Source: J088 sp003695505 [NCBI: Candidatus Dadabacteria bacterium] (GTDB lineage Bacteria > J088). From it: a DNA stretch of 12,241 nucleotides. Below, one piece after another: positions 2,353 to 12,241 of this stretch. The notes below the pieces were generated by a model. It was not told the DNA's origin. It saw only the letters and a list, made by a program, of their open reading frames with translations, and ran no database searches. The stretch's first letter is position 1, and every line of letters begins with the position of its first letter. The position numbers and the translations under genes are program-made. The DNA is taken from the NCBI GenBank assembly GCA_003695505.1, contig RFIY01000187.1, positions 1 to 12,241 on the forward strand, written 5' to 3'.

Positions 2353-3855
2353 TCAGCCGCACTGTTCCGGACCGATCGCCACGCTGTACGCCCCCTTGAG
2401 AACGGCGTCGATCAGCCAACCTCCAGTGACTTCGCGGGGTGCCACCTGCCTGAACCCCGTACCGCTCATACACGGCGCCTGCTCGTCCTGATCCTCGCGC
2501 GGGTACCAGAACCTCGCGGTGCCCGTCGTTGAGGTTACCCCCTCGATTTCCAGCGGTCCGCCACAGTTGTCCGTCCGGACAGCCTGCAACCGCCCTGGTG
2601 CCGCACGTGGATATGGGCGTGCCATGCAGGGATGGAACGTCCCCCTCGGATTGCGAAAGTCATCGTCCTGATGGGCCGCGAGCCAATCCTCCGACGGCGG
2701 GTACTCGATCGAATGCGGGTCGCCGGACGTCTGCTCCCACTGCCACCAGGCACTGCCCGCGCCGATAAAATCGTCCTCACGTTCTGCGAACCGCCGATAC
2801 CATGCGTCGTTCTGCTCGGGCGTCCCGCGAAAACTGCCGAACTCTCCGATCCAGAGCGTCGTATCGTAGGCTTTCGCAAGCGTTTCGTACAAAGTCGCGC
2901 CGTCGTCGACCGTGTACTCGGTGAGGATCGAGCCAAAGTAATTGTGCGGAGCAAATACCAGATTCGGGTCGTCGCTGAGTTCCAGATCCGGCAGTTCTCC
3001 GAGCGCAGGTTCGAAGAAAATGATATGTTCACCGATTCCAGCCTCTGCAGCGCGAATCTCCTCGATCGCACGCCGGTAGAACCGGGTCAGACCATCGACG
3101 GTACTGCGCTCACCAACACCAGGCTCATTGAGCAGATCGTACCCCGCAACACCGTCGTCTGCCGCAAAGGCGGCGGCGATGCGACCCCACGTCACCGCGA
3201 GCCGATCCTGGATACCTTCGCGGTTCTGATAAAAGTTCTCCCATGCGCGAATCACGGCCGGACTTTCCTCGCGAGTATCGGGTGTGCATGTCTGCAGCCC
3301 ATCCGTGAACGTCGCCCACTCTGGCGCTCCGTCCCAGCCTTTCTGATGGTGCGTACCCGGAGGACAGGTCTCGGAGACAGGCGTAAAAACATGCTTTCCC
3401 CAGGCGTCCTGGTGCATGTCGATCACGACGTACATTCCCCTTGCGTTTGCCGCCGCTACAGCGTCGCGGACGCGCTGCAGATACGTCTGATCGAACTCGC
3501 CGGGGGCCGGCTCCCAGAACGACCAGCTCGTGACCAGTCGAATCACGTTTGCACCCGTCGCCGCTGCGCCATCCCAGTCTTCTGCTGACAGTTCCGCCAC
3601 GGGTGGCAGGCCGGGAGCGCCCGCAAAATAGTCGCCAAGATGATTGAAATTGACGCCCCTCAGCACGACCTGGCGATGGCAAATATCGTAAACGCCGGCC
3701 GCATCGCCGCGCGTCGCAACCAGCCGCGGCATCGGCGGGCAGTCGTCGAGCACACTGTCGGCGGACTCAACAAGGCAACCACTCACGGTCACGATCAAGG
3801 CCAAACAAATTAATGCAATCACATTACCGGGGACGGAGCGTCGCGGATTCGTCAT
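2353..3855 (-). CDS. GH5 endoglycoceramidase-like lipoprotein
   Basis: A 500-residue glycoside hydrolase with a lipoprotein signal: basic start, hydrophobic stretch 11-24, lipobox VSGC with Cys27. Position +2 is Leu, so outer-membrane sorting is expected. The GH5 catalytic pair is visible: acid/base Glu244 in YDLLNEPG and nucleophile Glu338 in LWIGEFGSF. Several features recall endoglycoceramidases rather than cellulases: DMHQDAW (146-152), DGAPEWATFTDG (175-186), AWENFYQNREG (204-214) and the RPYPRAAPG-led C-terminal beta domain (about 412-500). Those enzymes release the whole glycan from glycosphingolipids. Eight further cysteines (39, 59, 164, 190, 410, 431, 462, 499) suggest disulphides outside the cytoplasm. 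The substrate is inferred; other glycolipids or beta-glycosides are possible. Confidence 0.85.
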   Translation of the reverse strand: MTNPRRSVPGNVIALICLALIVTVSGCLVESADSVLDDCPPMPRLVATRGDAAGVYDICHRQVVLRGVNFNHLGDYFAGAPGLPPVAELSAEDWDGAAATGANVIRLVTSWSFWEPAPGEFDQTYLQRVRDAVAAANARGMYVVIDMHQDAWGKHVFTPVSETCPPGTHHQKGWDGAPEWATFTDGLQTCTPDTREESPAVIRAWENFYQNREGIQDRLAVTWGRIAAAFAADDGVAGYDLLNEPGVGERSTVDGLTRFYRRAIEEIRAAEAGIGEHIIFFEPALGELPDLELSDDPNLVFAPHNYFGSILTEYTVDDGATLYETLAKAYDTTLWIGEFGSFRGTPEQNDAWYRRFAEREDDFIGAGSAWWQWEQTSGDPHSIEYPPSEDWLAAHQDDDFRNPRGTFHPCMARPYPRAAPGRLQAVRTDNCGGPLEIEGVTSTTGTARFWYPREDQDEQAPCMSGTGFRQVAPREVTGGWLIDAVLKGAYSVAIGPEQCG

Positions 3856-4060: not shown

Positions 4061-5155
4061 TCAAGGCAGGCGCCTCCCCGCCAATAACCCATCCAGAATC
4101 GCATAGTACGGCAGCTTCGGCCGCAGGTCGGCATCGAATGGCAGCGGCTCCGCAAAATTCTTGTAAAAGTACGGAATCCAGGACCGGGAATCATCGGTAC
4201 CCCAGAAGACGATCGCGGTACAGGCGGGCACCGCCAGGCAGGCGTCGACAAGTCGACGGTAGCGAATCGCCTGCTTGATGCGCTTGCCATTCGTGACCGG
4301 TTTGGGAATCCCGAGGTCGACCTCGGTCAGATGGATCTCGACGCCCAGTGCCGCGAGTCGGTCCAGTTGCGCAATCAGTTCATCTCGTGACGGCAGACTG
4401 AAATGCATGTGCGCCTGCAAGCCGACGCCGTGGATCGGCACGCCTTCGGCCTGCAATGTTGAGATCAGGTTGACCAGTCGATCGGCCTTGGGCCGCAGCC
4501 CTTCGACCCGAAAATCGTTGTAGAACAGTTTTGCATCTGGATCCGCCTCGTGCGCGGCGCGAAACGCCTTCGCGATGAAGTCCTGGCCGATATGCTTCGT
4601 CCAGACGTTGCGCCGCAGACCCCAGTAGCCGGAAATCGCCTCGTTGACCACGTCCCAGCAGCAGACGCGACCACGAAAATGGCCGACGACCGTCGTCACA
4701 TGGTCGAGCATCGCCTGTTCGAGCGCGCCCGGCTGATCGTCCCATTCGCCTTCGCGCACCCACTTCGCCCCGCCGTACCAGATCAGGGTATGGCCGCGCA
4801 CCTTGAGTCCGGCTGCGCGCGCCCGGTCCACGAAGGCATCGGCGCGATCGAACCGGTAGGTCACAGGATGGGGATGCAACGCCTGGAATTTCATTGCATT
4901 CTCAGCGACGACCATCGAGAACTGGCTGGTGATGAATGTCGCATACGTTGCGTCATTGACGAATTCCGAAGCCCTTGCGGCGACGCCGATATCAATGCCG
5001 GCGCGCGCAGCGGCGACCTTGAGCGGCAGCTCGCGCAGTGGCCAGGTCTCTGGCTGCTCGGAAGGCGCCTCGGGCGTCGTCCAGTTGAACGACCACATCG
5101 ATACCAGCAGAATCCAGGTGCCGACAAAACGGCCAAGCAGGTATTTGAAGAACAT
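4061..5155 (-). CDS. GH10 endo-beta-1,4-xylanase-type enzyme, membrane-anchored or secreted
   Basis: From the ATG at 5155 the protein has 364 residues. A hydrophobic N-terminus (about 5-22, YLLGRFVGTWILLVSMW) lacks a clear signal-peptidase site and may be an anchor. GH10 motifs follow in order: AENAMKF (84-90), GHTLIWY (121-127), the acid/base Glu172 in WDVVNEA, GLQAHMH (245-251), the nucleophile Glu278 in IHLTEVD, and FWGTDD with Trp326. The family cleaves xylan backbones. The usual His after HTLxW is Tyr127 here, so specificity could differ. An in-frame ATG at 5242 with AAGG upstream is possible; I prefer 5155 because it puts the hydrophobic segment at the N-terminus. The leader before 5155 is poor in Shine-Dalgarno. 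It is transcribed ahead of the GH5 gene and divergently from the response regulator. Confidence 0.87.
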   Translation of the reverse strand: MFFKYLLGRFVGTWILLVSMWSFNWTTPEAPSEQPETWPLRELPLKVAAARAGIDIGVAARASEFVNDATYATFITSQFSMVVAENAMKFQALHPHPVTYRFDRADAFVDRARAAGLKVRGHTLIWYGGAKWVREGEWDDQPGALEQAMLDHVTTVVGHFRGRVCCWDVVNEAISGYWGLRRNVWTKHIGQDFIAKAFRAAHEADPDAKLFYNDFRVEGLRPKADRLVNLISTLQAEGVPIHGVGLQAHMHFSLPSRDELIAQLDRLAALGVEIHLTEVDLGIPKPVTNGKRIKQAIRYRRLVDACLAVPACTAIVFWGTDDSRSWIPYFYKNFAEPLPFDADLRPKLPYYAILDGLLAGRRLP

Positions 5156-5310
5156 TTGTGCTGTCTCGTCGTGTGCTGCGTTGATGCACCAGCGCAATCG
5201 TTTGTCGATGGGAATCAGATTATTGTCGCACCTGCGCCACATCGCGGGCCTTCAAGCTGGCCTCGGCATTGCAACACATCCGCCAGCACGATACCCAACG
5301 CCATTTCAAC

Positions 5311-5325: not shown

Positions 5326-6051
5326 ATGATTGCTGCCGCCACGCACACACGCCACTCCGGTACCGTCACAGGCAAAAGACGTAAAACGATTCTCGTCGTC
5401 GACGACGATCCCGACATTCTCCGCCTGTTCGAACGGATCCTGCCAACGCTTGACGTCGATTTCCATACAAGCGCGGATCCGGCTGCCGCGATGCGGGATA
5501 TTCCGACGCTCAAGCCCGACCTCGTCATGCTCGACATCGCGATGCCCGTCGTCTCAGGCTTTACCGTCGCCCGCACCGTGGCCACCTGGGTACCCGACGC
5601 CCGCATCGCCTACATCAGTAGCAATGCCCACACCGGACAGCAACTTCGCGCGTGGCGGACGGGCGCGAGCGCGTTTCTTGCCAAACCCCTGGATCTGGAA
5701 ACGCTGGCGCAACGCGTCGAGCATCTGCTCGACCATGCGCCTTCCGCGCAGGACATCGTCGTTATCGGTGACTTCGGAGCCACCTCCTGGTCGGAGCTTC
5801 TGCCGACGATTTCACACCTCGCGAACCGACTGTGCGTGCGCGTTGACAATGGCTCCGGTGTCGATACCGCGGTATGGATCGATTCGGGGAAAGTCGCCGA
5901 CGTCGCACATGGGGCGCTGCGCGGCAAAGCCGCACTCCCCGCCGTTCGTGCAATCCGCGAAGGAGTCTATCGGATTTCCCTGGAGTCGCCGTCGGGCACG
6001 TCGCTGGACATCGCACCAGAAGCGTTCGCCACCGCCGAACTTCAGGACTGA
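5326..6051 (+). CDS. Response regulator: receiver domain with DUF4388/PATAN-like C-terminus
   Basis: The protein has 241 residues. The receiver domain spans about 20-137: acidic pocket Asp26/Asp27 in VVDDDPD, phospho-acceptor Asp70 in LVMLDIAMP, Ser98 in YISSN and Lys120 in LAKPLD. No helix-turn-helix follows. The C-terminal part (about 145-232) contains AVWIDSGKVADVAHG then LRGKAALPAV and EGVYRISL. This is the pattern of a glycine-turn beta hairpin, an acidic/aromatic 'GxAA' helix and a closing strand seen in DUF4388/PATAN domains, which are known as protein-interaction modules. A protein-protein output, rather than DNA binding, is therefore inferred. No histidine kinase is adjacent, so it is an orphan in this window. 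It is divergent from the GH10 gene and convergent with cobT across a 28-bp gap. Confidence 0.82.
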   Translation: MIAAATHTRHSGTVTGKRRKTILVVDDDPDILRLFERILPTLDVDFHTSADPAAAMRDIPTLKPDLVMLDIAMPVVSGFTVARTVATWVPDARIAYISSNAHTGQQLRAWRTGASAFLAKPLDLETLAQRVEHLLDHAPSAQDIVVIGDFGATSWSELLPTISHLANRLCVRVDNGSGVDTAVWIDSGKVADVAHGALRGKAALPAVRAIREGVYRISLESPSGTSLDIAPEAFATAELQD

Positions 6052-6079: not shown

Positions 6080-7144
6080 TCAGCGCCCGGTATCGGTCAC
6101 GCCGGCATCCGAGAAACTCGCCATCTCCGCGAGGATGCGGGCCGCGCTGCGAATGATGGGGATCGCCAGCGCCGCGCCGCTGCCTTCGCCGAGGCGCATC
6201 CCGAAATCGAGCAGCGGCTCAAGGCCCCACTCGTCGAGGATCAGCCGATGTCCCGGCTCCACGGAGCAGTGTGCCGCAAAGATGTAGTCCCGCACGGACG
6301 GCGCAATGCGGGTCGCGACCAGGGCAGCGGCGGCGGTGATAAAACCATCCACCACGACGGGAACACGGGCCGCCGCTGCGGCCAACGTCACGCCGGTCAG
6401 AGCCGCGATTTCGAAGCCGCCGACCCGGCGCAGCAATTCGAGCGGATGCACGGACGCGACCGCATGACGTTCTAGCGCCGTGGAGACCGCCTGCTGTTTT
6501 CGCGCCAGACCAGCGTCGTCTACGCCAGTTCCGCGACCAATGGCCACGTCTGCCTCCAGGCCGAGCAACGCGGCCGTCAACGCCGAAGCGGCGGTCGTGT
6601 TGCCAATCCCCATCTCGCCGAGACCGATCAGACCGATACCGTCGGCGATCAGTTGATGGGCAATGGCCGCGCCGTGGCGGATCGCCGTCTCGCAGGCCTG
6701 CACCGTCATTGCCGGGCCTTCGCGCATATCGGCGGTTCCGGGCCCGACGCGCCGGTCGAGTACGCCGTCGAGGCCCGCGATCGGGGACGCCACCCCCAGA
6801 TCGGCCACGACGAGACGAATGCCGGCATCACGACAAAGCACATTGATCGCCGCGCCGCCGCGCGCGAAATTGGCGACCATCTGGGCGGTCACTTCCTGCG
6901 GGTACGCGCTGACACCGGCCGCGGCGACTCCGTGGTCGGCAGCGCAGACGACGACCGCGGCATCCGGCACGGGCGGAAGCTCCTGTCCACGCGCGAGCGC
7001 GTACCTTCGCGCAATGTCTTCGAGCCGCCCGAGGCTGCCGCGCGGCTTCGTCTTGTCGTCGAGACGGGCCTGAATCGACGCACCCAATGCCTCATCGATC
7101 GGATTGATCTTGTCGGCCATCTCCTGAACCGGTTCCCAGGGCAT
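6080..7144 (-). CDS. cobT: Nicotinate-nucleotide--dimethylbenzimidazole phosphoribosyltransferase
   Basis: This 354-residue CobT is full length. It transfers phosphoribose from nicotinate mononucleotide to 5,6-dimethylbenzimidazole, making the alpha-ribazole phosphate of the cobalamin lower ligand. Family landmarks are TKPRGSLGRLE (32-42), CAADHGVAAAGVSAYP (67-82), GEMGIGNTTAA (176-186), the C-terminal EPGHRLILDEWGL and LGEGSGAALA (319-327). Glu320 in the last motif corresponds to the family's catalytic Glu. The ATG at 7144 is preceded by GAGG seven bases away, better than the in-frame ATG at 7120. It follows the propeller lipoprotein by 57 bp with an intrinsic terminator between, so its expression depends either on readthrough or on a promoter I cannot see. 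Confidence 0.96.
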   Translation of the reverse strand: MPWEPVQEMADKINPIDEALGASIQARLDDKTKPRGSLGRLEDIARRYALARGQELPPVPDAAVVVCAADHGVAAAGVSAYPQEVTAQMVANFARGGAAINVLCRDAGIRLVVADLGVASPIAGLDGVLDRRVGPGTADMREGPAMTVQACETAIRHGAAIAHQLIADGIGLIGLGEMGIGNTTAASALTAALLGLEADVAIGRGTGVDDAGLARKQQAVSTALERHAVASVHPLELLRRVGGFEIAALTGVTLAAAAARVPVVVDGFITAAAALVATRIAPSVRDYIFAAHCSVEPGHRLILDEWGLEPLLDFGMRLGEGSGAALAIPIIRSAARILAEMASFSDAGVTDTGR

Positions 7145-7160
7145 TCGTCACCTCACTTTG

Positions 7161-7194
7161 CACAAAAGCGGGGGCGGCCCGGCCGGGCCGCCCC
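7161..7194 (-). terminator. Intrinsic terminator after the propeller lipoprotein gene
   Basis: A perfect 24-bp palindrome (7171-7194, GGGGCGGCCCGG and its reverse complement) can fold into a 10-bp all-GC stem with a GGCC loop. Read leftward it is followed by CGCTTTTGTG. It starts seven bases after the lipoprotein stop codon and ends about 17 bases before the cobT start, close to the cobT ribosome binding site. Confidence 0.75.
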
Positions 7195-7201
7195 ATCGAG
7201 A

Positions 7202-8512
7202 TCAATATAGACCGAACGCTGACGGTACAAAACCATCCGCAAACGAACGCTCACCGAGCAGCGTGATCGCGGGCGCGGACAAGTCGGTTGCATACACGCC
7301 GATCACTGGCGTCGCCAATGTGCCGTCGCCGACGAAGAGTCGCTGATGGACCGGATCGGCAAAAAGCGTCGTCGCGTAAGCGCCCGCCGCACTATAGATT
7401 TCGGTTGCCGTGCCATCGGAAACGTTCACGGCATAGATCGTCTCATTCTCGAGCACATCCCCGGTCGCCCAGTCGGTCTGGCCGTAGCTGATCACGGCGA
7501 CATGTGTCCCATTGATCAGGGCGATGACATCGGCCAGCGGTTGCTTTGCGAAGTCCGCGGCAAACAGCAACTTTTTCGTCGTTGGCGCAAAAGGATCGGA
7601 AACATCGACGATCCAGAGGCCCGATCGCGCGAGCTGCACCGTCGGACCCTTCGCGAAGTTACCGCCACAGACCAGGATCAGTTCCTTGCGCGGGCCGTTG
7701 AGTACAGCATCGCCGCAGTTTTCCAGCTCATCCGTCACAAGCCGGCTGACGACGCCATCGGTGACCGGATCGACCACGACCAGCGCCGCGGGCCCCGACA
7801 GGAACGATCCATCGGCGGTCATGTTCTGAAGGACAACGTACACGGCGTCACTGACCGCAACGAGCGCGTCCGGGCGGGCGTACGTCGGCGTCGTCGCCTG
7901 CGTCGCCGCCGACGCCCAGTCGCTGAGCGGTATCGTCTGGACGACCTTGCGTGTCGACGGATCGATCTTCAGCAGGTCGTCCCCGCTGTCGAGTGAACCG
8001 TCCGCGGCAAACACGAGTCCGTAGCGAGCGACGTACGCGGTCGTCGGGGAGATGGCCAGATAGTCATGCGGATTGTGTCCGTAAAAGGGTTCGCCGACCG
8101 ACATCTGCGCCTTGACACTGCCGTTCTCGGTATCGAGCCAGATCAGCGACGCATTGAGCCGGTCGATCACGACAGCTTCACTGGTTGGCAGGTAGCCCCT
8201 GCCGACAGCGAGATCGGTCCCGATCGCATAACCGAGTACCGGATCGGTGCTGCCCGAGTTGGCCACGTCCTCGACCACGATGTTGCCAGCGAGGTCGAGC
8301 AGCGAAATACCAGCGGCGGAATAATCGGGCGCACGGCGCAACGCAATCAGCCCATGGCCCGCCAGATTCGGAAACGCGGCGGCGTTGGCCTCTGTCACCG
8401 ACAACGGCGCATCATCGGTCGCGGAATCGGCCGTGTCAAGAAATTCGCAGCCGCTCGCGGTTGCCAGAACGGTTGCAAGCAGGAGCCAGAGACGTAAGGG
8501 GGAACGATGCAT
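7202..8512 (-). CDS. Beta-propeller-like lipoprotein, candidate corrinoid-binding partner of the receptor
   Basis: A 436-residue predicted lipoprotein: basic start, hydrophobic 8-18, lipobox ASGC with Cys22; +2 is Glu. The mature part has seven spaced strand-turn-strand units, near residues 68, 114, 180, 242, 298, 358 and 403 (for example LLKIDPSTRKVVQTI, LVVVDPVTDGVVSRL, LWIVDVSDPFAPTTKKL). This pattern is typical of YncE-like beta-propellers. A GGAGG eight bases before the ATG supports the start. It lies 39 bp after the TonB-dependent receptor and before a strong terminator, so it belongs to the riboswitch-controlled unit. In Bacteroidetes the propeller lipoprotein BtuG captures cobalamin for BtuB; by context this could be a functional analogue. 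That role is inference. Cys266 and Cys282 could form a disulphide. Confidence 0.8.
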   Translation of the reverse strand: MHRSPLRLWLLLATVLATASGCEFLDTADSATDDAPLSVTEANAAAFPNLAGHGLIALRRAPDYSAAGISLLDLAGNIVVEDVANSGSTDPVLGYAIGTDLAVGRGYLPTSEAVVIDRLNASLIWLDTENGSVKAQMSVGEPFYGHNPHDYLAISPTTAYVARYGLVFAADGSLDSGDDLLKIDPSTRKVVQTIPLSDWASAATQATTPTYARPDALVAVSDAVYVVLQNMTADGSFLSGPAALVVVDPVTDGVVSRLVTDELENCGDAVLNGPRKELILVCGGNFAKGPTVQLARSGLWIVDVSDPFAPTTKKLLFAADFAKQPLADVIALINGTHVAVISYGQTDWATGDVLENETIYAVNVSDGTATEIYSAAGAYATTLFADPVHQRLFVGDGTLATPVIGVYATDLSAPAITLLGERSFADGFVPSAFGLY

Positions 8513-8551
8513 GGTTTTTTCCTCCGTGGTTGTGAAGGTTGAGACTTCGGT

Positions 8552-10525
8552 TCAGAATCTGCTGCTCAAGGAGCCCATCAGATGGCGTCCCGGCAGCGGG
8601 TAGGCGATCAGATCCATTTGTTGACGATCCATGACGTTATAGAGCGTGATTTCCCCAACCAGGCGGCCTTCCCGCCAGCCGAGGCGCGCACTCAGATCGA
8701 CCTGCCTGCGCCCCGGCACGCGTACCGTACCGGTCGTATCGACCGTATGTGGCGATTCGATGCGGAAGCGTACCTGCGCGCCCGCGCTCAGATCGCGGGG
8801 CAACGGTTCATTCCAGCCGACGGCCGTGCGACCGCGGTGTCGGGCGCGTAGTGGCAGCGGCTTTCCCTGCTCCGCCGCCTGCGCGCTTTTCTGGCGGGCG
8901 TCGAGCCAGTCATACGTCTGTTCGAGCAGCAGCCGCTGGCGCCAGGCGAGGCGCAGCCGCCATTCGCTGCCCAGCAGCCGCGCGCCATCCTGGTTACGCG
9001 CAACGAACGTGTCGCTGGTCGAGCGCACGAACTGAATCAGGTCGAAATGCCAGCTCGCGAACGCGGCCGCGTCGAGCAGCAGATCCACGCCTCGCCCAAG
9101 ATGTGGGGTCCAGGTCGCACCGGCATCGAGCGTATGCGCCGATTCGGGCCGCAACACCTGATTGGCCGGCAGCACGAATGCGCCGTCGCCGAACAATTCG
9201 AACAACGTCGGCTCACGTCCGGCCCAGGTATAGCCGGTCCGCAGCAACAGGTCCGCCATCGGGCGGACGTCTGCACCGACGTGCGCATCCGGTCGGACAC
9301 GGACGACCGGATCCGGCACCAGCAATTGCCCGCCAAAGGTCTCGATGCGCGCGACATCGCTGCGTACGATGTCGAGCCCCAGACTGGCGGACAGCCGCAC
9401 CAACTGCCCGGGCAACGGCGCCAACAATCCACTCCGCAAACTGGTTGCCAGCCGGACGGCGTTCGGCGGGTCGGGAGCAGCGGACAGGCGTTCGTTCGGG
9501 TCGTAGCGTTCGGCGTCGATACGCAGCGCCAGCGGCCACTCCAGACCGTGCGCCGAACGGGGGCTCGCCGAACCCCATCCGCCAAGCCGCATGGCCCGAT
9601 TGTCGCTGTCGTTTGGCGCGATCCCGAATTCCTGCAGCGGATCGCGCTGCCGCTGTCGCAACTGGGCGTGGTACATTCCGGCGGACCACGAAGGCCGATT
9701 CCGGGGCGACAGCGCCACGGTGCTGATGAAACGACGTTCGTCGCGATCGGCCACGGTTGGTTGACGTAACCCGTTACCCGGCAGGCCACCCCGAAATCCG
9801 TAGGCCGAATGCATCGCGACCATCTGCAGATCGCCGGCCTCGACACGGGCCTTGATCAGGCCGTCGAACTGCTCGCCGTCGTTGTTGCCGCGCCGTAGTG
9901 TCTGATCGTCGGATGGGTCGAATGCTGTACCGTTGTCTGAACGGTACGAAAAGTTACCGTCCGTGCGACGCCACGAAACGGAACCCAGCACGCCGCCGCG
10001 CCTGAGCGGCTGGGTGTGCCCACCGGCCAGGTGTAATGTATTCCAGGCGCCGTACGCGGCTCGAAGCTGCGTTTCGCGGCGCTCGATCGACCGGGTCTGT
10101 AACCGGATCGCGCCGCCAATCGGTTGCGCACCGAGCACTTCCGGCGCGCCACTGCGCCAGACGTCGACAGCCTCGATGCCGAACAGATCAACCGTACCGA
10201 TGTTCGCGCGTCCATCGAACCCGCCACCGAGCGGCACCGCATCGAGAAACACGCCGGTCTGCCGTGCACTGGCGCCCCGGACGGCGGTCCGCTGCTGCCC
10301 GCCGAGCGAACCGTCATCGGTCGTCGCGACCCCCGGCACCGTCTGCAACAGCCCGGTCAGGCCCTCGTCCAGATGCTCGACGACGACAGCGCGCTCCTCG
10401 GTCGTCGCGGCGACCGTCGGGGCAGCAGCGGGACGCACGGTCCAGCGCTGCCCGTAGACCTCCAGCACCGGCGGCGACACCGCGGCTGCAGCAGCCATCG
10501 CGGTCACGGCGGTGACCGCGACCAT
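8552..10525 (-). CDS. btuB: TonB-dependent outer-membrane receptor, BtuB-like cobalamin transporter
   Basis: A 657-residue TonB-dependent receptor. An Ala/Val-rich signal (1-17) is followed by a possible TonB box (LEVYGQR, 21-27). The plug domain spans about 45-145, with LLQTVPGV, VRGASARQTGVFLDAVPL and the closing IGGAIRLQT. The rest is a beta-barrel, including GREPTLFELFGDG and a terminal Phe in SLSSRF, the outer-membrane assembly signal. The barrel is not close to E. coli BtuB by eye; the substrate call rests on the cobalamin riboswitch upstream, cobT and cobQ beside it. The start is uncertain: ATG 10525 overlaps a TGA in another frame, and its signal peptide has no positive residues. The strong AAGGAGG at 10574-10580 points instead to GTG 10569, which is out of frame (see findings). 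Confidence 0.85.
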   Translation of the reverse strand: MVAVTAVTAMAAAAAVSPPVLEVYGQRWTVRPAAAPTVAATTEERAVVVEHLDEGLTGLLQTVPGVATTDDGSLGGQQRTAVRGASARQTGVFLDAVPLGGGFDGRANIGTVDLFGIEAVDVWRSGAPEVLGAQPIGGAIRLQTRSIERRETQLRAAYGAWNTLHLAGGHTQPLRRGGVLGSVSWRRTDGNFSYRSDNGTAFDPSDDQTLRRGNNDGEQFDGLIKARVEAGDLQMVAMHSAYGFRGGLPGNGLRQPTVADRDERRFISTVALSPRNRPSWSAGMYHAQLRQRQRDPLQEFGIAPNDSDNRAMRLGGWGSASPRSAHGLEWPLALRIDAERYDPNERLSAAPDPPNAVRLATSLRSGLLAPLPGQLVRLSASLGLDIVRSDVARIETFGGQLLVPDPVVRVRPDAHVGADVRPMADLLLRTGYTWAGREPTLFELFGDGAFVLPANQVLRPESAHTLDAGATWTPHLGRGVDLLLDAAAFASWHFDLIQFVRSTSDTFVARNQDGARLLGSEWRLRLAWRQRLLLEQTYDWLDARQKSAQAAEQGKPLPLRARHRGRTAVGWNEPLPRDLSAGAQVRFRIESPHTVDTTGTVRVPGRRQVDLSARLGWREGRLVGEITLYNVMDRQQMDLIAYPLPGRHLMGSLSSRF

Positions 10526-10569
10526 CAATTTGCACCTGCCATCGTTGGCGGGTGGTTGCGGCGGAACAC
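10525..10569 (-). other. 14-codon leader frame before btuB (leader peptide or frameshifted signal-peptide start)
   Basis: AAGGAGG is followed after four bases by GTG, opening a frame of 14 codons that reads MFRRNHPPTMAGAN and stops at TGA 10527-10525. The receptor ATG uses the last base of that stop. The basic Arg-Arg start would be a normal signal-peptide n-region if it joined the receptor frame. It may be a true coupling leader peptide, or a one-base deletion or sequencing error near the AAATTG at about 10526-10531. Confidence 0.45.
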
Positions 10570-10657: not shown

Positions 10658-10699
10658 CATGCCGTCTTCTCCCTGATCGCGAGGAGATACGGTTCAACA

Positions 10700-10860
10700 T
10701 CGTCTGCCCAGGCCGGTCTCCTGACTCACGCATCATCGCCCATCCTCCGCCTTCCCATTCGCCGTGGCGAACAGTGGCACCGTGGAGGGAGCTCCGCGTT
10801 TACAGTGGCGCGACCGTGCCGGATTTTCACCGGCTTCCCGATTAAGGCAGGATCACACGT
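10700..10860 (-). ncRNA. Cobalamin riboswitch aptamer (class I type)
   Basis: Read leftward the segment carries the conserved cobalamin riboswitch core. P1 is CTGCC (10850-10846) pairing with GGCAG (10708-10704). The hairpin GCCGGTGAAAATCCGGC is at 10834-10818, and GCCACTGTAA starts at 10809. A C-rich L5 region is at 10784-10790, with a second GCCACTG at 10778-10772. A small hairpin TTCGCCACGGCGAA precedes GGGAAGGCGG. The B12 box GAGTCAGGAGACCGGCC (10727-10711) matches the consensus exactly. The GGGAAGGC-to-B12-box arrangement is that of class I (adenosylcobalamin) riboswitches. It precedes the receptor by about 175 bases and is expected to repress receptor and lipoprotein expression when cobalamin is plentiful. 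Confidence 0.95.
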
Positions 10861-10890
10861 TGTGCAGATCCAGACGCCACCTGTGCAGAT
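10861..10890. repeat. 9-bp direct repeat, 21-bp period
   Basis: TGTGCAGAT occurs at 10861-10869 and again at 10882-10890, exactly 21 bp apart, two helical turns. The pair lies between the candidate promoter and the aptamer; the upstream copy covers the predicted transcription start. It could be an operator or a chance repeat. Confidence 0.4.
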
Positions 10891-10895
10891 TTCCC

Positions 10896-10924
10896 ATGGT
10901 AGCCCGTCTGGCGCGACGCGTCAA
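10896..10924 (-). promoter_or_regulatory. Candidate sigma70 promoter for riboswitch-btuB unit
   Basis: Read leftward, TTGACG (10924-10919, five of six matches) and TACCAT (10901-10896, four of six) are separated by exactly 17 bp. Transcription would start near 10889, about 30 bases before the aptamer. The -35 overlaps the cobQ stop codon. Confidence 0.6.
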
Positions 10925-12241
10925 TTGACTCCGGCAACCCGGCTGATACGGACCAGATCGAGGTGCTCGGCGAGATGATCGGCCCAGCGATCGATCTCGG
11001 CGTCCAGAATCGCGTCGAACGAACGTGCCGATAGCTCCGGCGCGCCGAGTAAACGCGCCAGCGCATCGCGGGCCTCCGTCGCATCGAACAGCCCGTGAAT
11101 CGACGTACCGATCGTGCGTTCACCGTACGCGCCCTCGACCTCGCCGGCAGGTGCTGTCAGATCAGCCAGCGGCGCCACGGCATCGCCGACGACGCGCCCT
11201 TGGTGGATCTCGTAGCCGACCAGCTCGGCGCCGGCCAACGGCCCACCCATTGCGCCCTTGCCGCGCACGCGGCGAACGATCTTCTCGGGCCGGTATCGTG
11301 TCGCGACCGGCAACAGGCCGATGCCATCGACGCAACGCGGGCCGGATTCCAGACCCGCATGATCGATCGAGCGACCGAGCATCTGGTACCCCCCACAAAT
11401 CCCGACGACCCATGCGCCGGCGGCGTGGCGCGCGCGGATCACTGTGTCGAAACCGCGGTCCCGCAACCAGACGAGGTCGGCCGTCGTCGCCTTGCTGCCG
11501 GGCAGCAGGACCAGACGCGCTTCGTTGAGCATCCCCGGCCCATAGGCAAAGCTGACGCGAAACCGGCGGTCGATCAGCAGCGGCAATACGTCATCCAGAT
11601 TCGCCACCCGCGGACAGACGACGACGGCAACCGGCACCGCATCTGGATCCGCACGATCCAGGGCGGCAAGTCGCTCGATGGACTGGCTGTCCTCGATCGG
11701 TAGCGCCAGGTGTTCCAGATATGGCACGACACCGAGGACGGGCCGGCGGCACCACTGCTCAAGCAGCGTGATCCCCTCGGCGAACAATGCCGCATCGCCG
11801 CGAAAACGATTGACGATCAGGCCGGCAATGCGCGCACGATCCTGCGGCTGCAGCAACGCCAGCGTGCCGTACAATGCCGCGAACACGCCACCCCGCTCGA
11901 TATCCGCCGCCAGCAATACCGGTGCTTCGGCCAGGCGGGCGGTGTGCATGTTGGCCAGATCGCCATCGAGCAGATTCAATTCCGCCGGCGAACCTGCCCC
12001 CTCGATCAGCACCAGATCGGCATCGGCACGCAAGCGGCGGAGACTGTTGGCGATGGCCTGGCGTGCATCATCCTGCGGCGCATGCCACTGCCGCGCGTCG
12101 CGGACACCGCAAACCTTGCCGAGCAGGACCCGCTGGCTGCGCATCTCGCCTTCCGGCTTGAGCAGGACCGGGTTCATCGCCACGACCGGTTCAATGCCGG
12201 CGGCGCGGGCTTGCAACGCCTGGGCGCGACCGATCTCACCG
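10921..12241 (-). CDS. cobQ: Cobyric acid synthase (5' end outside window)
   Basis: The visible 439 codons are the C-terminal bulk of CobQ (usual length about 480-490). The frame runs open through the window edge with GEIGRAQALQA, normal CobQ sequence that follows the missing N-terminal P-loop. Visible landmarks are MNPVLLKP, LVLIEGAGSPAE, the dethiobiotin-synthetase-like middle with NRFRGD, and the class I glutamine amidotransferase domain. In that domain the nucleophile Cys lies in GICGGYQMLG (codon near 11397) and GYEIHQG and TSIHGLFD carry the active-site His region. CobQ amidates four side chains of adenosylcobyrinic acid a,c-diamide using glutamine and ATP. The TTG at 12216 is internal Leu, not a start. 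The gene lies upstream of the riboswitch and is probably transcribed from outside the window. Confidence 0.95.
   Translation of the reverse strand, partial: GEIGRAQALQARAAGIEPVVAMNPVLLKPEGEMRSQRVLLGKVCGVRDARQWHAPQDDARQAIANSLRRLRADADLVLIEGAGSPAELNLLDGDLANMHTARLAEAPVLLAADIERGGVFAALYGTLALLQPQDRARIAGLIVNRFRGDAALFAEGITLLEQWCRRPVLGVVPYLEHLALPIEDSQSIERLAALDRADPDAVPVAVVVCPRVANLDDVLPLLIDRRFRVSFAYGPGMLNEARLVLLPGSKATTADLVWLRDRGFDTVIRARHAAGAWVVGICGGYQMLGRSIDHAGLESGPRCVDGIGLLPVATRYRPEKIVRRVRGKGAMGGPLAGAELVGYEIHQGRVVGDAVAPLADLTAPAGEVEGAYGERTIGTSIHGLFDATEARDALARLLGAPELSARSFDAILDAEIDRWADHLAEHLDLVRISRVAGVN

Follow-up and report, generated by a model that had tools for sequence, protein, structure and literature searches.

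The Escherichia coli vitamin B12 receptor BtuB functions on its own, with no surface lipoprotein known to assist it. In Bacteroidetes, BtuB is partnered by the lipoprotein BtuG; the available text of PMC10404256 draws this contrast and describes a mechanism in which BtuG acts as a lid on BtuB. BtuG homologs are said to occur exclusively in Bacteroidetes (PMC6143338, as far as its accessible text goes), and papers of 2018 and 2023, in their accessible portions, call the BtuB-BtuG design exclusive to that group. BtuG has also been used as a reagent (accessible sections of PMC11287211 and PMC13374852). Literature searches on BtuG, on cobalamin-riboswitch TonB/propeller genes, on myxobacterial BtuB, on YncE and cobalamin and on Myxococcus surface lipoproteins, in a collection lacking bioRxiv preprints and most subscription papers, showed no such partner outside Bacteroidetes among the papers listed. 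Here we describe a 12,241-nucleotide stretch of DNA (the window; contig RFIY01000187.1 of J088 sp003695505, assembly GCA_003695505.1) in which genes for a TonB-dependent receptor, P0002, and a lipoprotein, P0001, lie behind a cobalamin riboswitch. We read the locus, with a probability of about 0.72, as a riboswitch-controlled unit in which a BtuG-related surface propeller would capture corrinoids for a BtuB-type receptor.

The receptor-lipoprotein locus

The initial annotation had placed in the window a receptor gene, a lipoprotein gene 39 bp later, a cobalamin riboswitch and a terminator-like hairpin, and scans for open reading frames (ORFs), domains, RF00174 and hairpins found each of these again. 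The minus strand carries, in this order, cobQ, riboswitch, TonB receptor gene, 39 bp, lipoprotein gene, hairpin and cobT. The features are:

10694..10899, minus strand: cobalamin riboswitch aptamer (RF00174, 113.3 bits, E 2.4e-28)
8552..10528 (TTG start) or 8552..10525 (ATG start), minus strand: TonB-dependent receptor P0002, BtuB-type (PF00593, 1.7e-21; PF07715, 6.7e-10)
7202..8512, minus strand: lipoprotein P0001, 436 amino acids, with an N-terminal hydrophobic stretch ending in an ASGC lipobox
8447..8449, minus strand: predicted lipidated Cys22 of P0001, invariant in the 31-row family alignment A3
8063..8074, minus strand: N147-P148-H149-D150 of P0001, the strongest family motif (NPxD), with N147, P148 and D150 invariant in 31/31
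7667..7717, minus strand: Cys266 to Cys282 of P0001, including a VCxG segment, both cysteines at least 90% conserved in A3
7171..7194, minus strand: intrinsic-terminator-like hairpin after the lipoprotein gene, ten G-C pairs and then CGCTTTTG (T run)
10921..12216, minus strand: cobQ, cobyric acid synthase (TIGR00313 and NF001989 above cut-off)
6080..7144, minus strand: cobT, nicotinate-nucleotide:dimethylbenzimidazole phosphoribosyltransferase (PF02277, 6e-134; TIGR03160 above cut-off)

The riboswitch match spans the full RF00174 model (1-189 of 189), passes the gathering cut-off of 31.5 bits and, under strict filters, is the only RF00174 match in the 2.83 Mb of the source genome. The gap between the receptor and lipoprotein genes is 8551-8513. 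The hairpin scan gave 4 sites where 3.4 were expected in shuffles, and because this count is near the shuffled expectation, only stem strength argues for a terminator at 7194-7171. The window covers an entire contig, one of 395 in an assembly that is 84.5% complete; cobQ has lost its start at the contig end, its match beginning at profile position 57-59.

The 31-row alignment of P0001 and its relatives has twelve invariant columns, among them Cys22, D63, R118, Q136, N147, P148, D150, R163 and D179. The invariance of Cys22 is partly a matter of selection, because 29 of the 31 rows were chosen among lipobox carriers. In the wider, 23-row alignment A7, the N-P of the NPxD motif is invariant and the D at least 90% conserved. 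A disulfide between Cys266 and Cys282 is possible from the conservation of the pair, and the C-x-G segment of the family aligns with VLCTG of BtuG. Searches with P0001 itself found nothing in plasmids, nothing in 58 other genomes and no second copy in the source genome.

Relatives and their genomic neighbourhood

Relatives of P0001 were chosen on protein similarity only, and riboswitch positions came from separate whole-genome searches, which located a cobalamin riboswitch in 58/61 and 53/54 genomes. A search of 386 genomes across bacteria gave weaker relatives besides three clear ones (E 6e-20 to 2e-12). A four-sequence profile then matched 82 of the 282 genomes of the G375 group at E 1e-3, as well as both genomes of the G149 phylum (2/2), and at the same threshold the 31-row profile matched 52 of 372 genomes drawn from many bacterial groups. 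Two sets of loci were assembled. Set 1 had 60 loci, taken from 56 of the 82 G375-group genomes (best first, one place each) and from G149, G288, G150 and G229; one locus, L184, was missed by a tighter profile at E 1e-3 and dropped, leaving 59 loci, 47 of them with 3 kb of upstream sequence. Set 2 had 40 loci of 35 genomes, namely 34 of the 52 genomes matched by the 31-row profile together with G345; three loci (L307, L308 and L315) lacked a family gene, and the others yielded 40 family genes from 33 genomes, of which 39 genes had 3 kb of upstream sequence.

The link to cobalamin genes that the initial annotation had drawn from a single locus is also seen beside the relatives. Among set-1 genes with 3 kb upstream, a receptor gene was directly upstream in 35/47 and a same-strand riboswitch lay within 6.5 kb upstream in 35/47; both were present in 29/47, and a receptor and/or a riboswitch in 41/47. 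The corresponding figures for set 2 were an adjacent receptor in 28/39 (24 of these upstream), a riboswitch in 34/39, both in 24/39, and one or the other or both in 38/39. When the 3 kb condition was dropped, a receptor and/or a riboswitch accompanied the family gene in 48/59 (set 1) and 39/40 (set 2). A riboswitch also precedes the family match by 0.2 to 6.2 kb, sharing its contig and strand, in 12/14 further genomes with weaker matches to the 31-row profile, the misses being G224 and G265. Given one to a few riboswitches per several Mb, we put chance riboswitch association at roughly one in a thousand, an estimate rather than a computed control. The riboswitch-receptor-lipoprotein arrangement is real and conserved.

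Variations on this arrangement were also seen. At L133-L135 separate riboswitches precede the receptor gene and the lipoprotein gene. The gene order is reversed, with the lipoprotein gene before the receptor gene, in G257, G148 and G287, and tandem family genes lie behind one riboswitch and receptor at L301 (G264), L302 (G127) and L282 (G040). Five loci are riboswitch-led with no receptor found by the receptor profile in the region scanned: L303 and L304 (both G109), L312 (G315), L289 (G131) and L300 (G223). Further transport-type genes accompany some family genes. At L165 a btuF-type gene and then a fused btuC-btuD-type gene (L165:8146-9966) lie behind the family gene; FecCD permease and periplasmic binding protein genes do so at L143, and a periplasmic binding protein gene at L179. 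At L084 the family gene lies between a btuF-type gene and a gene read by eye as cobS.

The receptors of these loci were compared with known receptor families. The receptor profile behind the neighbourhood counts combined P0002 with 14 long ORFs that precede family genes in set 1; P0002 and 11 of the 14 ORFs (n=12) were also checked individually. P0002 itself scored 54.3 bits against TIGR01779 (vitamin B12 receptor), short of the equivalog cut-off of 599.7, and all 12/12 receptors matched both TIGR01779 and the BtuB model at E 1e-10. Against solved structures, the 12-receptor profile placed the vitamin B12 receptor BtuB first (3.4e-50); it gave 7e-40 for BtuB1 and about 2e-30 for chains of YncD/PQQ transporters. 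Judged by these matches, P0002 is a predicted BtuB-type TonB-dependent transporter.

The initial annotation had seen in the lipoprotein-receptor pair a possible proteobacterial counterpart of BtuB-BtuG. The source genome is the sole representative of its phylum among the genomes compared, and a search of it for 16S found none. In a 27-row tree its RpoB branches beside those of beta/gammaproteobacteria (FastTree support 0.98), so that a proteobacterial origin is possible, not established. The label is not borne out: the source genome is not placed in Proteobacteria, and the relatives are a Myxococcota-like group and scattered other lineages. In the RpoB tree six members of the G375 group fall together with Myxococcus (support 0.997), and the group is therefore read as Myxococcota. 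Since the tree separates G000, G149 with G288, G150, G229 and the Myxococcota-like group, the family is present in at least five deep lineages. CobT was also tried as bait for relatives: of 80 named loci none had a family member (two profiles, E 1), and in the three that were opened (two Rokubacteriota, one Omnitrophota) a receptor was seen and the lipoprotein was not.

BtuG homology, possible surface location and rival readings

To compare the family with BtuG we used two reference BtuG genes, set by their matches to solved BtuG (4.7e-42 and 4.5e-18); that of G345 lies behind a riboswitch and a receptor gene. The two genes were among seven hits opened from a search with DUF5074 (PF16819), which we take to be the Pfam model of BtuG and which matched 28/372 genomes, 14 above cut-off. 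Another of the seven, L316 (G329), gives weak matches to BtuG chains (8e-6 to 0.003) and a better one to a YVTN protein. Solved chains are called BtuG here on the basis of 3DSM in the accessible text of PMC6143338 and of the BtuB chains in the same entries. DUF5074 matched 1/31 of the relatives, at E 0.044, below cut-off.

Profile comparison pointed to BtuG more clearly. The 31-row profile scored 94.1% against BtuG (E 1.3e-7, 308 columns) and 35-36% against a pair of YVTN propellers (134 columns). A wider profile, from which P0001, L129 and the bridging L316 had been removed, scored 98.5% against BtuG (E 2.8e-15), and P0001 alone scored 99.4% against that profile over 300 columns; the controls, reversed BtuG, CobT, GH10 and GH5, all scored at most 0.2%. 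As a control the YVTN pair is imperfect, because both members came from the DUF5074 search and one of them, L246, lies about 4 kb behind a cobalamin riboswitch. Among solved structures the best match of the 23-row wider profile was a BtuG chain (5.8e-14), followed by a YVTN surface-layer protein (1.3e-13). A reference BtuG gene also matches nine of its ten top-ranking chains, and the profile reached E. coli YncE at 1.1e-6. As sole query, a BtuG gene picks up a small number of family members, with E-values of about 1e-4. As a separate observation, the YVTN propeller gene L246 (G365) is on the same strand as the riboswitch it follows, and may be another corrinoid-linked propeller.

The initial annotation had also seen seven strand-turn-strand units in P0001. 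Self-alignment of the wider profile gave offsets of 43, 86-93 and 145 columns at 89-97% probability, and weak ones of 192 and 245 at 1-14%; the repeats span columns 36-373 (about 335), a length that, at 48 columns each, would make about seven units. With the tighter profile an offset of 58 was found at 94-96% and one of 117 at 61-77%, further ones being weak. Plain autocorrelation gave a weak signal of blade spacing (best z 3.3), the self-profile alignment being clearer. The family repeats are thus consistent with seven blades; the units did not emerge from P0001 alone, which shows a single YVTN repeat, weak and below cut-off (E 0.0076). By homology the family appears to be a propeller family, nearer to BtuG than to the YVTN pair, though a single BtuG ancestor is not proven. 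The alternatives first offered were homology to BtuG or convergence with it; because intermediates bridge the family and BtuG, homology is favoured, and a separate YVTN origin keeps some of the probability, as weighed below. P0001 lacks both a match to the DUF5074 model and the Bacteroidetes export signal, and so is filed as a divergent variant and not as BtuG.

The tether was considered across the family. A strict rule found a lipobox in 32/60 of set 1. Of the other 28, 26 were seen by eye to have a cysteine ending a hydrophobic N-terminus, two of them after histidine, and two were cut by a contig end. In set 2, the C-terminal tails of ten members gave hits to type IX sorting or FlgD-Ig domains at E 0.1 (L280, L295 and L311; more weakly L278, L283, L285, L287, L290, L292 and L299), and three of the ten score above the cut-off of TIGR04183. 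These ten were picked by eye for a visible C-terminal extension, and an eleventh, L298, was left out of the scan. By script, 7/10 of the tailed proteins have no lipobox, and the candidate cysteines in L280, L283 and L292 were judged spurious. Since type IX secretion carries proteins to the outside of the cell, the lipid-anchored and the tailed designs are both compatible with a surface role. The sorting tails in relatives suggest a location at the cell surface, and the tether seems exchangeable between family members.

Put together, these results are consistent with the following mechanism. When cobalamin is scarce, the riboswitch would permit synthesis of both proteins. The lipoprotein, probably a very divergent BtuG-related seven-bladed propeller, would be anchored in the outer membrane by its N-terminal lipid and face outwards. 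Corrinoid would bind in the central pocket of the propeller, and the lipoprotein would then hand it to the receptor, as the BtuG lid does on BtuB. We also lean, by a modest margin over even odds, towards a broader view: that propeller-capped BtuB uptake of corrinoids is widespread in bacteria and Bacteroidetes BtuBG is one branch of it, the capture subunit having diverged past simple sequence search and its tether switching by lineage, an N-terminal lipid in many and a type IX sorting tail in others.

A number of results weigh against the capture of corrinoids by a BtuG-related surface propeller. Taken alone, P0001 matched no Pfam family up to E 1, DUF5074 included, and no solved structure up to E 10; compared directly with BtuG it scored 0.2%. 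Its single-sequence structure model had a mean predicted local distance difference test score of 39.1 and was uninformative. The 31-row profile found no BtuG among solved structures, its best match being a phosphatase propeller (0.025), and the YVTN pair scored 96.8% against the wider profile (E 3e-10), below BtuG. Neither receptor nor riboswitch was near 6/47 set-1 genes and 1/39 set-2 genes, and in G375 and G396 (L131 and L132) the family ORF follows a riboswitch at a distance of 23 nt, the surrounding region giving no receptor. The export signal of Bacteroidetes lipoproteins has a general form that is absent from P0001, where Cys22 is followed by EFLDTAD. In BtuG2 the lipid-bearing cysteine is followed by MKWD (accessible text of PMC6143338). 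Acidity after the lipid cysteine, taken as a surface signal, was not significant (13/24 vs 9/31, p 0.095).

The last points bear on the orientation of the protein. Lipoproteins outside Bacteroidetes are mostly periplasm-facing, and the propeller might sit on the inner leaflet of the outer membrane, where it would take corrinoid from BtuB to BtuF or stabilise the receptor. The missing export signal, the non-significant acidity and the btuF-/btuCD-type genes that follow in the same direction in some loci would fit this arrangement, which we nonetheless consider unlikely, given the type IX sorting or FlgD-Ig tails on some relatives and the profile homology to BtuG, a surface protein (PMC6143338, accessible text). 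The origin of the partner is a separate matter. It might have been recruited from YVTN/YncE propellers independently of BtuG to do the same job, an origin compatible with corrinoid capture at the surface. In favour are the 96.8% score of the YVTN pair and the second place of the YVTN surface-layer protein; also, E. coli yncE adjoins the receptor gene yncD/pqqU. With XusB as another propeller partner in Bacteroides (accessible text of PMC13142918), the E. coli pair implies that propeller-receptor pairs arose more than once. Convergence is somewhat doubtful all the same, since BtuG outscores the YVTN pair with both profiles and comes first among solved structures.

The ligand might also be something else, a siderophore as for XusB, or PQQ, in which case the propeller lipoprotein would be merely co-regulated by cobalamin. 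XusB, a seven-bladed propeller lipoprotein, has siderophores as its ligands (PMC13142918, accessible text). On the same side, 12/12 receptors also matched the siderophore receptor MxcH, with a best E-value better than that of the B12 model, and one of the 12 matched PqqU. Against these stand the cobalamin riboswitch at most of the loci examined in distant lineages, the B12 receptor structures as best matches of the receptor profile, cobQ and cobT in the window, and the btuF/btuCD-type genes in some relatives, and we regard another ligand as very unlikely. That P0001 is a YncE-like protein of unrelated function, there by chance, is scarcely credible: its lone weak YVTN repeat would allow this, and a pairing conserved across genomes picked by similarity alone contradicts it.

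Elsewhere in the window, a GH10 gene (4061-5242, minus strand) adjoins a GH5 cellulase-type gene (2353-3855, minus strand) whose product has a lipobox-like N-terminus. On the plus strand, 5326-6051 encodes a receiver-domain protein whose C-terminal half has no Pfam match up to E 1.

Comparison with known systems

If the family binds corrinoids at the cell surface, the lid mechanism is confined neither to the gut nor to Bacteroidetes. A function would then be available for many proteins that have no Pfam match, and surface export of lipoproteins in lineages without a known export signal would become testable.

E. coli BtuB belongs to the same receptor family as P0002 and is likewise under riboswitch control. 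E. coli YncE with YncD/PqqU places a propeller beside a TonB receptor, as is proposed for the window; YncE is soluble and periplasmic, and its gene is not known to have a cobalamin riboswitch. XusA-XusB of Bacteroides likewise combines a TonB receptor with a seven-bladed propeller surface lipoprotein (PMC13142918, accessible text). XusB takes iron ligands and belongs to DUF4374, whereas the P0001 locus has a cobalamin riboswitch, and DUF4374 was not among the families matched by P0001 at E 1 or by the 31 family members at E 0.1. BtuH, with DUF4465, represents corrinoid binders reported from eight bacterial clades (accessible text of PMC13398666), and has a beta-jellyroll, not a propeller.

The closest system is BtuB-BtuG of Bacteroides (BtuG2, 3DSM; accessible text of PMC6143338), with which the locus shares a riboswitch, a BtuB-type receptor, an adjacent lipoprotein and near full-length profile homology. 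P0001 differs from BtuG in coming from outside Bacteroidetes and in having neither a DUF5074 match nor the export signal. Compared with the two reference BtuG genes, it is about 85 residues longer and carries the NPxD motif and the cysteine pair. On present comparisons, P0001 most likely works like BtuG.

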